From Candidatus Jettenia ecosi (GTDB lineage Bacteria; Planctomycetota; Brocadiia; Brocadiales; Brocadiaceae), in NCBI GenBank assembly GCA_005524015.1, contig SULG01000002.1, positions 36,221 through 93,670 on the forward strand: 57,450 nt of DNA, read 5' to 3'. The translations under genes and the position numbers were made by a program. The notes beneath the pieces are model-generated. The model was not told where the DNA came from and did not search any database. It saw only the letters and a list, made by a program, of their open reading frames with translations. Below are positions 20,443 through 56,076 of this stretch, piece by piece. Positions within the stretch are counted from its first letter, which is position 1. The number at the start of each line of letters is the position of its first letter.

Positions 20443-21916
20443 TTAATGTTGTCGCATGTGAAGCTTTTTTGTGGAATAAATTATCCAACAAACCACAAAA
20501 GTTCCACTACTATAAAGATAATAAAGCACATGTGAAAAAATGGCCAACAGTAAAAACTTAAAACCTCTTAATTTGAAAAAAAATCGGTATAATTGGCTGT
20601 TCAGTAATAAGATATTCATGGTAGTTAGGACAAAGGCAAAATACAAGGCAGCCGCAGAAGGGAGTAAGTTGTATCCCAGATTACTGCGGGATGCGATACC
20701 AGATAGGGTAACAACCATGCCTGCTGTAATGATAAAGACAATCCGTATCATGACATTTCGATGCCAACTTCTGGTTTTTATGTTCGGTATTTTCACATAG
20801 AAGATAACAAAATTGACGAGGAGAAATAGAATAAGAATGAAAAACTTTAAATGATAATAAAATGAAGTGTTGGGAATACATGCAAGGAGTTTCTGATTAA
20901 AAAAGAAGAAAGTTAATAAGGTAAATGCAAATCCGGAAACGATGAAAAATAGCAGAGGAAGTAAAAATTTTAAATGTCTTCCCTTGTTCCAAAGTTGAAG
21001 GATGCGAGTGTAAGAAACAACAAAATTAGCGCCAAGAAAAAGAGCGACTCCCAATAGCTTGATATAATAATAAAAAGACCCTACGGGAATATGGGAAAAG
21101 AGTTTATATTCAAGCAAAAAGAATATTCCAAGCTCTATAAGAAGTCCGACACAAAGCGAACTCACTAAATGACTTTTTTGGAAGTTTAATCCTTTCGGCA
21201 TCTCCTGCGATTGGAGGATTAAATTTGCCCAGGGAACTGCGCGGCAAAAAATATCTGTATAAAGTAAAGAATAAAAACTCCATTTCTTTAAATGTTTTAC
21301 CTGGAGTTCTTTTACCAGTAAGATTTTGTAACCGCATTTCCTTATCCTAAGGCCGAGTTCTACATCTTCAATAGATGGCTTTGGATACTGCGCAGCATCG
21401 AAGCCTCCGGTTTTATGAAATACTTCTTTTCGGATTGCACCACATCCAGCCCAAAAGGTATGAGCATTATTGTAGGAAGTTTGGTGAATAAAATGATGAA
21501 AAAGGTTTTTATATTGAGAAAAGAAGTTGATAGCTGATGGTTGATTATCATATGATCCAAATAATGCTCCAATATAATGCTCCAATTTCGGAATTGTTTA
21601 AGAATTTGGATACAACACAGCTAAGGGAATTCTGATGTATAACCACATCTGAATCCACAAAGAAATAAATATTGCCCCTGGCATTCTGTGTACCAACATT
21701 TCTCGCTGCTCCCGGTCCCGATTGTTTATCCATACGGACAACCTGGACTCCTGCCTGCCGGGCTATCTGCGGACTCTCGTCTGTAGAGGCATCATCGACA
21801 ACAATTATCTCGTAGTGAGGATAATCTGAAGATTTGATAGCATCCAAACAACTGGGAAGAAATTGACTACAATTATACGCTGGAATTATGACGGAGACGA
21901 GGGGCTTTTTGTGCAA
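20443..21916 (-). pseudogene. GT2 glycosyltransferase split by a 13-bp tandem duplication
   Basis: Two frames make one protein. The first (21916 to 21548, TTG start) has PLVSVIIPAYNCSQFL, IIVVDDASTDESP and the DxD strand YFFVDSDVV, then runs out of frame after EIGAL. The second (from about 21585 down to 20443) continues LFGSYDNQPSAINFF and has the acceptor-site segment SIEDVELGLRIRKCG, then five to seven membrane helices. At the junction the 13-base unit ATTGGAGCATTAT (minus strand) is present twice, at 21586-21561. Removing one unit restores EIGALFGSYDNQ and a single 486-residue frame. As written, the enzyme would be truncated after the GT-A donor half. It could be a true null, a reversible slippage site or an assembly error. 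Confidence 0.85.
21561..21586 (-). repeat. 13-bp perfect tandem duplication causing a frameshift
   Basis: On the plus strand ATAATGCTCCAAT occurs twice back to back (21561-21573, 21574-21586). It lies inside the GT2 gene and adds 13 bases, shifting the frame by one. Confidence 0.95.
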
Positions 21917-25485: not shown

Positions 25486-25861
25486 AGTATAGAGAGTAAT
25501 GCCATACATAATTTTTTTTGTCATTATTGAGTTTAAGACCTTCCTTCTTGCATTTCTGAGAGGCAAAAAGAGTATGGTTGTAAAATGCAATTCAATTCTC
25601 TTCCATGTCGGATAAATACTAGACCTTTAATGAAGAAAAAAATATGCCAAGATAAGCATAAGATGGGAAAAATACCTAAGTTTTATTAGCAAATCCTTAT
25701 AAATTTTGCATCAAAATGCATGATACTGCAGCACAATTCAATTCATAAGTAATTTATTTATTTATTTAATCTTATTACACAATAGTATCTGTTATTTTCA
25801 TGTATCATGAAACAAAATAAAATACCGTATAGGGTAACTATGAGATTATCAAAATATGAGA

Positions 25862-25928: not shown

Positions 25929-25952
25929 TTTGTATACTATTTTGTATACTAT
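25929..25952. repeat. 12-bp tandem duplication
   Basis: TTTGTATACTAT is present twice in a row. It is intergenic, so it breaks nothing, but it is another short tandem duplication in the same 5 kb as the two 13-base ones. Confidence 0.85.
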
Positions 25953-26070: not shown

Positions 26071-26860
26071 CTATTTAGCCTGTTTTTGGGTTTTCTTTGG
26101 TTCATTTTTACATATTGGGCATACCAGTTGGGCATACCAGGTAATTTTCATCGCAGGTCTCACACTGTTGAATAAGCCATTCCTTTGGTTCCTTCTTACA
26201 ATTAGGACATTTCATTTTCCACTCTATGGGATGATATGCTTTTCCCTTGATAGGTCTTACCCGTTCTGTTTCACATTTGGGGCACTTACTTTCTATCGAT
26301 CCTGATTCTAAACCTCCTTTAGCCTTTTCCTGTTGTGCTTTACAAATTGAGCATGCCAAGAAATCTTCATCGCAGGTATCGCAATGCTGAATGACCATCT
26401 CTTCCGGTTTTTGTTTACAGTCAGGGCATTTCATTTTCCACTCTACGGGATGATATGCCTTTCCCTTAATAGGTCTTGAGCGTACTAATTTGCATTTGGG
26501 GCACTTGCTTTCCATTGCCGTGGCATCTAGCTCAGCAGAAGCTTTTCGACACATGGGACATACAAGAACGTCTTATCCACATTTATCACAACGATGAACA
26601 GCATCTCCTGATACTTCATTTTTACATTCGGGACAAACCATGGTCTTGGGTAAAAGTAACCCTCTTTTCCCTGAGCTTAAACTCTTTTCTTTACAGGACG
26701 GGCAAATGAGAGTCTCTTCGTCTGTTGTGGCTTGTTCTGTAACTACAGTTCTTCTCTCTGGTTCTTCTTCTGAGTAAACAAGATTATCCAGCCAGGTTAC
26801 CAAACTAAAAAACGCAACTACAGAAGCAATTGCAATTCCTAAAACTTTTTTATTCAACAT
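26071..26860 (-). pseudogene. Exported multi-zinc-ribbon protein gene, decayed by a stop codon and a 13-bp duplication
   Basis: The reading starts at 26860 with an N-terminal hydrophobic anchor (KKVLGIAIASVVAFFSLVTW) and then CxxC pairs (CPSC, CPEC, CDKC). It meets an in-frame TAA at 26573-26575 and continues in the same frame with VCPMC, CPKC, CPDC, CDTC, CSIC, CPKC, CPNC, CETC. Two long units of about 62 residues (KCPKC...RPIKGKAYHPVEWKMKCP) are nearly identical. The stop lies where the sister units have Glu (CDKCG-stop-D against CDTCDED), consistent with GAA to TAA. Near the end a 13-base duplication shifts the frame; removing it gives ENYLVCPICKNEPKK and a TAG at 26071. The repaired protein would be 258 residues, exported or membrane-anchored and zinc-binding. 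Function unknown. Confidence 0.8.
26115..26140 (-). repeat. 13-bp perfect tandem duplication causing a frameshift
   Basis: Plus strand TTGGGCATACCAG occurs twice (26115-26127, 26128-26140). It converts the expected VCPICKN ending of the zinc-ribbon protein into VCPTGMPNM followed by a stop. Confidence 0.95.
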
Positions 26861-28842: not shown

Positions 28843-32346
<3,504 letters not shown>

Positions 32347-36194: not shown

Positions 36195-38687
36195 ATGAGT
36201 CATAAAAAATTATTAGCAAGATTAGCAAGCTCATTTTTCATCTTAATTCTTATAAGCCTTTTCTGTAGTAATATCAATACCTCTCAGGCAGCATGGATTA
36301 AAAATGCTGTGGATGCTCCAAAATGGTTTTCTGAGTTTCAAAGACATTCCTCTCGGGCAATTACAATTGACTCCTATAAACGACCTCATATTGTTTATGG
36401 AGGGGATCACCTTTACTATGCATACCATAACGGTAATACCTGGATTTGTCAGACGGTAGATGTATCGTCGGGAGTAGGGCAGTATGCCGCCATAGCAATT
36501 GACACGTCAGGCAAAGTACACATAAGCTATTACGATGCAACGTACGGTAACCTTAAATATGCTACCAATAAATCTGGCCCCTGGATAAAAACCAGTATAG
36601 ACAGTAGCGGAGATGCAGGAAGCCATACCTCAATAACGGTTGACTCATTAAATAAGGTGCATATCAGTTATCTTTATTTTGATTCTAATACGGAAGAAAC
36701 TAAACTTAAATATGCCACCAATAAATCTGGCTCCTGGATAAAGACCACCCTTGTTAGCGGTGGTTGGGATAATTCTATAGCAGTTGATAAATCAGGCAAG
36801 GTACATATATGCTATCAAGAGGCTAATGATATCCTGGAGACCAATCTTCTCAATTATGTTACCAATACATCAGGTTCATGGGAAATCGTAGCTATAGACA
36901 ATTTTGGTATGTTCTCTTCAATAGCAATTGACACGGCGGGTAAGATACATATCAGTTATTATAATGAATCTCATGGCGATCTTAGATATGCTACCAATAA
37001 ATCAGGTTTATGGGCAACAGAGGTTGTAGATAATAGTGGGATAAGTGTAGGTATGTTTACCTCTTTAGCGCTCGATACGTCCGGCAAGGCGCATATCAGC
37101 TATTACGATGGTTATCCTAATTCTAACCTTAAGTATGCTACCAATAAGTCAGGCTCATGGGTAAAAACTACTATGGATAGCTACGGGGATGTTGGCTGGT
37201 TTACCTCGTTAACGCTTGATACATCAGGTAAGGCTTATATTAGCTATTATGACGATTCCAAAGGTTACCTTAAATATGCTACTAATAAGTCAGGCTCATG
37301 GGTAAAAACTATTGTGGATAAGAATGGAATTGTAGGTGAATCTACCTCCTTAGCGCTCGATACTGCGGGTAAGATGCATATCAGTTATCATGATTGTTTT
37401 AAACGTGACCTTACCTATGCCACCAATAAATCCGGCTCATGGGTGAAAACTATCATCGACAGTTACGGAGATGTAGGCCGGTACAACTCCATAGCGCTTG
37501 ATACTGCAGGTAAAGTACACATCAGCTATTGTGATAATTCTAAAAACGACATTAAATATGCTACGAATAAATCTGGCTCCTGGGTAAAAACCGTTGTGGA
37601 CAATACGGATGTAGGTCCATATACCTCTATAGCAGTTGACTCATTCAGTAAGGCTCATATTAGCTACTATGATTTTAATAACGACAATCTTAAATACGCT
37701 ACCAATAAATCCGGCGCATGGGTAAAGAAAACTCTGGAGCATGGAGGAATATGGTCGTCTATAGCCGTTGATACTTCAGATAAAATACACATCAGCCATT
37801 ATCATTCCGGTCTTACATATACCGCCAACAGATCTGGCACATGGGTCAGCACCCTTGTGGATGGTATTACACTTATGGGTTTCTCTACCTCTATGGCAGT
37901 TGATATATACGGTAAAGCGCATATTAGTTATACCAATGGCGATCTCAAGTATGCTACCAATAAATCTGGTGCATGGGTAAAAACAACCGTTGACAGTGCT
38001 GCAGATTCAGTAGGTGATTATAACTCAATAGCAGTGGATACATCCGGCAAGGCACACATTAGCTATTATGATGAGAGTACTGATAATCTTAAATACGCTA
38101 CGAATAAATATGGCAATTGGTCTAAAGCAATCGTGGACTCACATGGGTCTTTAGGATTATATACCTCCATAGCGCTGAATGCGTCAAATAAGGTATACAT
38201 CAGCTACTACGATTTAAGTAATGGCGATCTCAGGTATGTTACTGATGCCTCTTCCTTATCTCCATCAGACTTGTATGTAAAAGAGGCCGAAGATAGTGCA
38301 GGCGCAGATATTCCCGATGAGGATACTATTTCCGATACGGCATCGGGTATTATGCAAGTCGGCTATCATGGGAATGTTGACGATAAATCTAACTCCACCA
38401 CCGCGCATTCAATTTCCGGATATATCCTGGATGAAAACGGATTTCCAATAGAAGGTGTAAAATTGAACCTTGGAATAAGGGGATATGTCGATACTACAAA
38501 GTCAAATACGAATGGGCTCTTTGAATTTAAAAATTTACGGAAAGGTATTTATCGCATTACAGCGGAGGAAAACAGTTATAAAAAACACACACGGGAGATA
38601 AAACTTCTCGGAAAAGAAGAAAAAAGTATGGTCATCAAATTGATTAAGAAAAATAAAGAGAAGTATGATATAGCTTTACAGTATTAA
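36195..38687 (+). CDS. Secreted repeat propeller with C-terminal carboxypeptidase-regulatory-like domain
   Basis: 830 residues, signal peptide at about 1-32. About fourteen repeats of 45-50 residues follow, each containing a form of SIAVDTSGKAHISYYD and LKYATNKSGSWVKT; the first is degenerate (IVYGGDHLYYAYHNGNTW). The count and the repeated beta-strand pattern fit two stacked seven-bladed propellers, as inferred. Residues about 740-820 (SISGYILDENGFPIEGVKL, GLFEFKNLRKGIYRITAEE) form a CarboxypepD_reg/SdrD-B-like beta sandwich of the kind used as an adhesion or anchor module. GGAGG precedes the ATG. It is likely a surface or periplasmic binding protein. No catalytic residue pattern was found. 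Confidence 0.82.
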   Translation: MSHKKLLARLASSFFILILISLFCSNINTSQAAWIKNAVDAPKWFSEFQRHSSRAITIDSYKRPHIVYGGDHLYYAYHNGNTWICQTVDVSSGVGQYAAIAIDTSGKVHISYYDATYGNLKYATNKSGPWIKTSIDSSGDAGSHTSITVDSLNKVHISYLYFDSNTEETKLKYATNKSGSWIKTTLVSGGWDNSIAVDKSGKVHICYQEANDILETNLLNYVTNTSGSWEIVAIDNFGMFSSIAIDTAGKIHISYYNESHGDLRYATNKSGLWATEVVDNSGISVGMFTSLALDTSGKAHISYYDGYPNSNLKYATNKSGSWVKTTMDSYGDVGWFTSLTLDTSGKAYISYYDDSKGYLKYATNKSGSWVKTIVDKNGIVGESTSLALDTAGKMHISYHDCFKRDLTYATNKSGSWVKTIIDSYGDVGRYNSIALDTAGKVHISYCDNSKNDIKYATNKSGSWVKTVVDNTDVGPYTSIAVDSFSKAHISYYDFNNDNLKYATNKSGAWVKKTLEHGGIWSSIAVDTSDKIHISHYHSGLTYTANRSGTWVSTLVDGITLMGFSTSMAVDIYGKAHISYTNGDLKYATNKSGAWVKTTVDSAADSVGDYNSIAVDTSGKAHISYYDESTDNLKYATNKYGNWSKAIVDSHGSLGLYTSIALNASNKVYISYYDLSNGDLRYVTDASSLSPSDLYVKEAEDSAGADIPDEDTISDTASGIMQVGYHGNVDDKSNSTTAHSISGYILDENGFPIEGVKLNLGIRGYVDTTKSNTNGLFEFKNLRKGIYRITAEENSYKKHTREIKLLGKEEKSMVIKLIKKNKEKYDIALQY

Positions 38688-38733
38688 TGGTATAGGATTC
38701 GAGCAGCTACTCAAAATACTGTTGGAGCATAGG

Positions 38734-38761
38734 AGGGGCAAACCTTGTGTTCGCCCCTTAC
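38734..38761. repeat. GGGGCAAACC/TTGTGTTCGCCCC palindrome
   Basis: AGGGGCAAACCTTG and TGTTCGCCCCTTAC pair imperfectly. It belongs to the family seen at 52741, 52806 and, as a half, at 53815. It lies between the convergent propeller and carbonic anhydrase genes and could help end transcription on both strands. Confidence 0.7.
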
Positions 38762-38828
38762 TATGCGTAAATTCGCAATCAGTGAATTAAAAAGTTTATA
38801 GTAAGAGAAAAATCACCGGAAATTTAAC

Positions 38829-53628: not shown

Positions 53629-53672
53629 ATTCTCTTAAGTTAATCGGATAATGTACAGAACTATTACATTTA

Positions 53673-53701
53673 GTAGGGGCAGGTTTCAAACCTGCCCCTA
53701 C
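53673..53701. repeat. GTAGGGGCAGGTTT/AAACCTGCCCCTAC perfect palindrome
   Basis: A 14-base perfect inverted repeat around one central base, 44 bases after the SYLF stop. No T-run follows, so a terminator role is uncertain. A half-copy of a related family (GGTGAGAACCTTGTGTTCGC) is at about 53817. Confidence 0.85.
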
Positions 53702-53883
53702 CATGAGCTCGTTTAACGGTTATGGTTCGATCTGTAAGATTGAACCAGTCCTGGTTTTGTTTGTCAGGTATTAGTTTATGATTTGTTATTGAAATTCATG
53801 CTGAAAGTGTACTGGCGGTGAGAACCTTGTGTTCGCTAGCGCTTTGAGTAAATCTAATTCTATGCATCCTGCCATAAGAAGGA

Positions 53884-55698
53884 TTAACCTTGTTCCCTGA
53901 TTGCAAAATCCAATAAATCCTCTATTGCTGAATTAACATCCCCATTTGTATGCTTAATTGCATACTCCTTAACTACTTTAAACTCGTTTTCCTTGAGTTT
54001 TAGACTTACAGAACATGGTATGGTCACCAAGACTTTTTCTGCAGAAATTCCCTTATACTTATCAGAATAATATTTATGAAAAGAAGGGATATTATCACTA
54101 TTTTCAAAATACGTTACCACATCTTTTGCAACCTCTATCCCGCTGATATAGGCCCCATGAACCGACAAAGGCTGGTACAGGTTGTTATAGGCAGGGGCGG
54201 TGGCCTCTCCAGCCCAAAAAACAGGAAGGGTTTCAATCGGACTTTTTAATGTTTCGCGTACTTGCTTGATCTCTTGAATGCTCTTCCCCTCGTTATAACT
54301 AATATAAGAATTTCCACCCCTCGACCAAATATCTGCCCCCCAGTCCTTACGATGTACATTAGGCTCACCGTTACTTTTCCAGACTAATTTTTGCTTCCAA
54401 TTCCAACTGTCCTTCATATTGTAGATCTCTTCTATACGTTTAAATATATACTCCGTTGCATCTTTATCATTATGAAATTTTTTAATGAGTAGATAATCAA
54501 CCCCCATTAATAAGGCCGTGAGAACGTAAGGTCCATTTTCAAGCTTAGGAAAAGATGTAAAGAAAGTGCGCGGCTGTGGATTATCTTTTTGTTTATGACC
54601 GGTTGGATTGACTAAAATTGCCATCTCATTATCATTTGTTATATGATCATACCCCCATACACATTCCCTAAACTGCATGGCAAATTTGGCAATGGGTCCT
54701 GGTTTTAAGATATCAAAAACGCGCTTCTTTTGTTCAGGGAAAAATTGTCCAAAAATTTTAGCACCTTTATGTAACAGCATTCCGATAGAAAAGGTACAAA
54801 TTGCAGAACCAGCCGTAAATTCTTTTCCATCTCTGGTTGTTACCTTAACTCCCTTTTCAAATTTTTCCACCTTGGTAACTTCGTGGTTATAAAGGATTTC
54901 CCCCTTTGTTTTACCAGACTCCTCCTGTTCAAATTCTTTCAATATAGCTTTCGGCATCTGGTCAAAACCACAATATTCATTATCGGATCCCTTCATTCTA
55001 TGTTCATAGAGTTCTTCCCGTAACTGTTCAGGAATTTTATCAAGGTTAAGTCCTGCAACACTGATATTATCTGCAACGGCATTGCAAATGTGATCACCAT
55101 GATGATGAGGTGGAGTAAGTTTATCGGAAGAACCGTCCAGGGTCAGTACACCCGGTGTGTGTGACGAAATAGCGTACAGGGCCATATCATGGCCTTTTTC
55201 CTGGAACCCTAAGGATTCAACAAATTTTTTCGCTGATGTATCACCTTTGGTAAGGTTAAAATATTGAATCTTTCCGAATAAACCATAATTTTTGCTTCCC
55301 ATTTTCTGTAAATTTTGGTCGTACGTATGTGCCCACGTTGCTGGTTGCGGGAGTACCCATTCTGGATTTGGATCTCCAGGGAAGGCAACCCGAACGTTTT
55401 TAAATTTAGAATACCTCTCATACCCGAATTTCTGCCGTTTTACCTCAGCCCAGAACTCCTTATACGGATTATCGTCAACATGGATGAAATGTGCTCCTTC
55501 CTCAATAGGAAATCCTTCTCTTACCTTGCTGCCATCATCGGTGAGCACGAAATCTTCTTTGGAACTCATTCGCCCACCAACACGATTTGCTGCCTCAAGA
55601 ATTAAAACCTTCTTTCCTGCTTTTTTTAATTCCCTGGCTGCAATAATGCCTGCAATACCCGCCCCTAAAACAATACAATCATAATGTTCATTTGGCAT
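53884..55698 (-). CDS. Flavin amine oxidase-like protein with a ribbon-helix-helix-like tail
   Basis: 604 residues, no signal peptide. FAD-binding motif YDCIVLGAGIAGIIAARE with the EAANRVGGRM GG-doublet; the C-terminal FAD segment PVFWAGEATAPAYNNLYQP and GAYISGIEVAKDV are typical of monoamine/polyamine oxidases. It would oxidise an amine or related substrate using O2 or another acceptor. The last 50 residues (SVSLKLKENEFKVVKEY, then NSAIEDLLDFAI) look like a ribbon-helix-helix segment, unusual for this family. AAGGAGGGGG precedes the ATG at 55698. Substrate unknown; it could also be a desaturase/isomerase-type member. Confidence 0.83.
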   Translation of the reverse strand: MPNEHYDCIVLGAGIAGIIAARELKKAGKKVLILEAANRVGGRMSSKEDFVLTDDGSKVREGFPIEEGAHFIHVDDNPYKEFWAEVKRQKFGYERYSKFKNVRVAFPGDPNPEWVLPQPATWAHTYDQNLQKMGSKNYGLFGKIQYFNLTKGDTSAKKFVESLGFQEKGHDMALYAISSHTPGVLTLDGSSDKLTPPHHHGDHICNAVADNISVAGLNLDKIPEQLREELYEHRMKGSDNEYCGFDQMPKAILKEFEQEESGKTKGEILYNHEVTKVEKFEKGVKVTTRDGKEFTAGSAICTFSIGMLLHKGAKIFGQFFPEQKKRVFDILKPGPIAKFAMQFRECVWGYDHITNDNEMAILVNPTGHKQKDNPQPRTFFTSFPKLENGPYVLTALLMGVDYLLIKKFHNDKDATEYIFKRIEEIYNMKDSWNWKQKLVWKSNGEPNVHRKDWGADIWSRGGNSYISYNEGKSIQEIKQVRETLKSPIETLPVFWAGEATAPAYNNLYQPLSVHGAYISGIEVAKDVVTYFENSDNIPSFHKYYSDKYKGISAEKVLVTIPCSVSLKLKENEFKVVKEYAIKHTNGDVNSAIEDLLDFAIREQG

Positions 55699-55836
55699 AA
55701 TTGCCCCCTCCTTAAAAATTACTGTTTTATTGAAATTACAAATAATCTAAATGCAGAGAACAGGTTTGTGATGTGCTCAATATTAATCCCTTTTACAAAA
55801 ATTCCAACAAGAAATCGTATCCGTATTCCGGGAACA

Positions 55837-56076
55837 TCATAATTCAGCAGGGGAGGGTGCTGTATATCGCTCGAGAAATTCCAGATATTCGTATGCTTCC
55901 CCGAACGTTTGCCCGCACATCTCTTTTGAGGGTATAAGATTTGAACAGACCTTAGGTTTTTCTGGTTTGCCGAAAAGGAGACAACGATTATCCGGACCAA
56001 GCTGTACACATCGGATACCGGCAGGCTTGGCCGTGTGAAAGCATTCTCGGACAGCCTGTTTAACCTTGCTTCCCCA
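55837..56076 (-). pseudogene. Remnant of a YeiW/YkgJ-type cysteine-cluster gene
   Basis: The minus frame reads AKPAGIRCVQLGPDNRCLLF, GKPEKPKVCSNLIPSKEMCG, and ends EYLEFLERYTAPSPAEL at a TGA (55837-55839). This matches, from memory of the family, the C-terminal half of UPF0153/YeiW proteins (CxxCxxCC metal-binding, about 84 residues), including its three late cysteines. The expected N-terminal GACC motif is absent: at the right distance the frame shows a TAG (56077-56079) and a Trp codon, and no start codon follows. So it is a fossil, or a gene with sequence errors. It lies just downstream of the PNPOx-like gene on the same strand. An overlapping 131-codon frame has no family look. Confidence 0.6.

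Follow-up and report, generated by a model that had tools for sequence, protein, structure and literature searches.

Waite 2001 and Waite 2003 reportedly describe reversible sequence duplication within capsule genes. PMC4243769, which cites both, names the pneumococcal capsule genes cap3A, cap8E and tts as the sites of such reversible duplications. Our literature search, which covered titles and abstract openings, returned no closer parallel to the present locus than these genes and no paper on phase variation in anammox bacteria.

The window considered here, i.e., the whole stretch of DNA that was analysed (57,450 nucleotides), holds a 13-bp unit at 21561..21573 that is repeated exactly, head to tail and directly adjoining, at 21574..21586 (no strand is assigned to either copy). 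The run length equals the unit length, and there is no microhomology beyond the unit. The unit has two matches in the whole 3.86-Mb genome, both at 21561-21586; a second allele of the site was found neither in the window's own assembly nor in the viral contigs searched for it. The chance level for such duplications is low: Markov resampling (one run for each of five sets) gave none with a unit of at least 12 bp in the set resampled from the 57-kb window and one over all five sets (1.32 Mb).

The duplication lies in a GT2 glycosyltransferase gene, which is now represented by two ORFs on the minus strand, in different frames and with a 38-base overlap. The 5' fragment (21548..21916, 122 aa) matches Pfam PF00535 over profile positions 1-110 of 168 with 104.7 bits (curated cut-off 23.3), and contains the beginning of the GT-A fold as well as a DSD motif, which we take to be the metal-binding DXD motif. 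The 3' fragment (20443..21585, 380 aa) comprises the remainder of the catalytic domain and the hydrophobic C-terminal half, and no Pfam model matches it over its cut-off. The assignment to GT2 is also supported by the intact orthologue in G002, a genome of the same genus (probably Jettenia) and a different species, which is about 95% identical to the window's genome (G000) and syntenic with it (the sister genome below): the PF00535 domain, of the GT-A type, covers residues 8-164 of that protein with 115 bits against the curated cut-off of 23.3. Among the 25 NCBIfam models listed for the intact protein none reached its own cut-off; by sequence, the solved chains nearest to it are those of heparosan and chondroitin synthases. 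The neighbours of the gene are other glycosyltransferases and a polysaccharide flippase.

At E 1e-3 the 380-aa fragment is matched in 26 of the 59 genomes searched, the window's own included. The best match is in the sister genome (97% identical), where the open frame of 492 codons is free of stops. The orthologue there has one 13-bp unit and a single ORF of 486 aa and 1461 bp, which is precisely what the first-pass annotation had predicted for the window's gene with one unit removed; its description of a perfect tandem duplication splitting one gene also holds, as single-frame orthologues show. That of Ca. Brocadia pituitae is in frame at the site, within a single frame of 514 codons; the window's genome belongs to the same family, which we take to be that of the anammox bacteria. 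That of Ca. Loosdrechtia aerotolerans is open across the duplication site and has its own frameshift further downstream (about L031 10420-10440). Because these three relatives, read at the site, do not have the duplication, it is derived, having originated in the lineage of the window's genome or during its assembly; the frame is broken relative to intact orthologues, as in a pseudogene. Among 33 family genomes, only the window's own and the sister genome hold a 20-mer flanking the repeat. The GT2 gene has no match at E 1e-3 in the third genome of the genus (G001).

The Ca. Loosdrechtia locus (L031 9638-12368) shows some further features: a near-perfect 9-bp duplication (RISRIS) that keeps the frame lies in the orthologue, and the adjacent oxidoreductase gene likewise reads as two ORFs. 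This locus reflects either parallel decay or a low-quality assembly.

The frame breaks at about residue 115 of 486, that is, inside the catalytic domain, because PF00535 spans residues 8-164 of the intact protein. As the duplication cuts this domain, the assembled allele is most likely null, and neither fragment would be expected to act as a transferase by itself. One could imagine a functional split, in which both fragments are produced, translation of the second starting at a TTG within the copy that is read first, and combine into a working enzyme; both ORFs are indeed open and overlap. We find this barely credible, considering that the cut falls within the catalytic domain, that no ribosome-binding site is evident by eye before the TTG, and that the split is absent in all three relatives read at the site.

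We believe, with a probability of roughly 0.6, that the locus carries a recent loss-of-function mutation in a dispensable GT2 gene of the surface-polysaccharide type in an anammox bacterium. In the window's lineage a 13-bp stretch would have undergone head-to-tail duplication, with a frame shift inside the catalytic domain; the fragments would be inactive and the allele null. Slippage could remove one of the two copies again, which would make the null revertible in principle; no sign of switching was seen. We presume the duplication to be real rather than an error of assembly, the product to be inactive and the gene to be dispensable. The first-pass annotation had left three options (on-off switching, a recent null and an assembly mistake), and the recent null is the best supported of them.

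The substitutions relative to the sister genome bear on the age of the event. The 3' fragment is still constrained (dN/dS 0.105), as expected if the event is recent; the nine intact genes around GT2 range from 0.081 to 0.222. Against this, dN/dS of the 5' fragment is 0.775, a value obtained from only 3 synonymous and 8 nonsynonymous changes. Placed by eye with the help of two outgroups, 2 of the latter belong to the window's branch and 3 to that of the sister genome, and 3 are undecided, so that the window's branch shows no trace of prolonged decay. By these counts, the lesion appears to be young or the allele to be an artefact.

An alternative is selected phase variation, in which gain and loss of the unit turn the glycosyltransferase off and on in the population and alter the surface glycan. 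This agrees with the polysaccharide neighbourhood, with the otherwise intact GT2 reading frames and with the reversible duplication on record inside pneumococcal capsule genes (PMC4243769). We nonetheless regard it as improbable. There are two units only, mixed alleles were not found in the assembly, and the repeat tract is not kept in orthologues, as it would be in a phase-variable gene: the sister genome has one unit (a comparison of two different species), and in Ca. Brocadia pituitae and Ca. Loosdrechtia the frame runs through the site uninterrupted. The gene was not found in the third genome of the genus. In addition, switching of this kind would not repair the neighbouring zinc-ribbon gene, which contains a stop codon besides a similar duplication. 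Dispensability is preferred to an evolved switch because there are two copies, the repeat is unconserved, the gene is absent in the third genome and the Ca. Loosdrechtia frameshift is independent. If switching were shown, the locus would become a candidate case of anammox bacteria changing a glycan reversibly.

The zinc-ribbon gene (26108..26860, minus strand) contains an in-frame stop at 26573-26575 (AAA to TAA) and a 13-bp duplication at 26115, which shifts its last codons at the 3' end. The gene encodes 258 aa in the sister genome, which shares a 268-codon open frame with the third genome; dN/dS of its two pieces against the sister genome is 0.188 and 0.273. Thus, two disabled genes (GT2 and zinc-ribbon) are found within about 6.4 kb. 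The zinc-ribbon gene is a repeated one, and related sequences occur in 29 of the 33 family genomes. As to the integrity of the other genes, 31 of the 36 sister-genome ORFs of at least 100 aa with a relative in the window are covered to at least 95% by one window ORF (the count leaves out 11 of 47 ORFs, which have no window relative). The other five are the GT2 and zinc-ribbon genes, one ORF cut by the window edge, another whose start differs and one located at an insertion; only GT2 and zinc-ribbon are broken by internal lesions.

Several observations concern the rest of the window. About 2.2 kb at 53629-55854, with a 604-aa flavin amine-oxidase-like ORF, have no counterpart at that place in the sister genome, which in turn has about 2.8 kb of extra DNA at window positions 38699-38824, including a 485-aa ORF at the place matching transposase family PF01609. 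A tandem-repeat region at 36474-38242 (units of about 141 bp) gives many cross matches to the sister genome. The P-type cation ATPase ORF at 28843-32346 (minus strand, 1167 aa) has its C-terminal membrane domain (PF00689) matched in two stretches.

The alignment with the sister genome contains 46 indels over 53,127 aligned window bases. Exact duplications of at least 4 bp occur at 21561 and 26115 (13 bp each), at 25929 (12 bp) and at 25752 (4 bp); all four sit on the window's side and none on that of the sister genome. The 12-bp tandem duplication (25929..25952) is intergenic and absent from the sister genome; the second 13-bp one (26115..26140), 4.55 kb from the first, is likewise confined to the window's genome in this comparison (neither is assigned a strand). 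Over 151,055 aligned bases, a part of the 1,155,056 bases sampled from the window's genome, these three are the only exact duplications of 12-30 bp, and the side of the sister genome has none. With positions taken as uniform across the aligned 151 kb, P for all three falling within 4.55 kb is about 0.003 in a post hoc test; for any triple that close among the 15 places with units of at least 12 bp found over 1.155 Mb, P is about 0.02, also post hoc.

A genome-wide excess of duplications in the window's genome was considered and rejected: the rates for units of at least 12 bp are similar in the three genomes of the genus (4 entries per 400 kb in the sister genome and 3 per 400 kb in the one-contig third genome).

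The mechanism that made the duplications may be slippage during synthesis, fill-in with end joining, or something else. Since the run length equals the unit length in each of the three, there is no sign at these sites of slippage between pre-existing short repeats; among the 17 entries of the window's genome sample with units of at least 12 bp, 9 show no additional match, in 2 a single additional base matches, and the other 6 are longer arrays. A Ku gene is present in all three genomes, which permits a reading by end joining. One local episode in the window's lineage (e.g., staggered breaks, fill-in and Ku-type joining) might account for the whole burst of microhomology-free 12-13 bp duplications within 4.6 kb and for the knock-out of a surface glycosyltransferase that could revert later; we consider this distinctly improbable.

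The same three sites could be footprints of a transposable element, excised or lost in assembly, with a target-site duplication of 12-13 bp. The duplications share nothing beyond the unit, and the sister genome is rich in transposases (51 matches to PF01609). Against this, two multi-copy families of that genome (8 and 2 copies) have no flanking repeat of 12-13 bp, the longest being 7 bp (the right end of the first family is poorly defined), and no target motif common to the three units was seen by eye; such footprints are very improbable.

More serious is an assembly artefact, in which short contig ends or stretches from gap filling were placed side by side where they should have been overlapped, or a repeat was omitted between two target-site copies. 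The assembly consists of 223 contigs, the three exact duplications within 4.6 kb are of near-equal length (12, 13 and 13 bp), and the aligned 151 kb contain no further indel of 12-30 bp that is an exact duplication. The tight clustering keeps this explanation alive; three duplications so close together are as compatible with a local artefact as with local decay. At the same time, similar duplications are found elsewhere (the 15 places mentioned, and also in the sister genome and the one-contig genome), the alternative allele is absent from the assembly, and contig joining would not produce the independent nonsense substitution in the zinc-ribbon gene. We consider an artefact unlikely, but it is the main rival to a recent null.

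We thus return to a recent loss of function. If it is real, this species would make an altered or shorter glycan than the sister species, which may bear on the cell surface and granule formation.

Compared with known systems, the locus resembles the GT2 glycosyltransferases (Pfam PF00535) in the domain match of its intact orthologue and differs from them in that the window's copy is broken. It agrees with ordinary pseudogene formation through a short tandem-duplication indel: the change is derived, breaks the frame, is limited to one lineage and leaves the rest of the gene intact, and a neighbouring gene is also disabled. As it stands, the GT2 case is that of an ordinary broken gene, with the mild oddity that the duplications are clustered locally and lack microhomology. 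With the pneumococcal cap3A, cap8E and tts, as presented in PMC4243769, it shares a short tandem duplication in a polysaccharide gene, the frame shift and the possibility, in principle, of exact loss; however, reversible switching is reported there, whereas the present locus is one static two-unit allele in one assembly.
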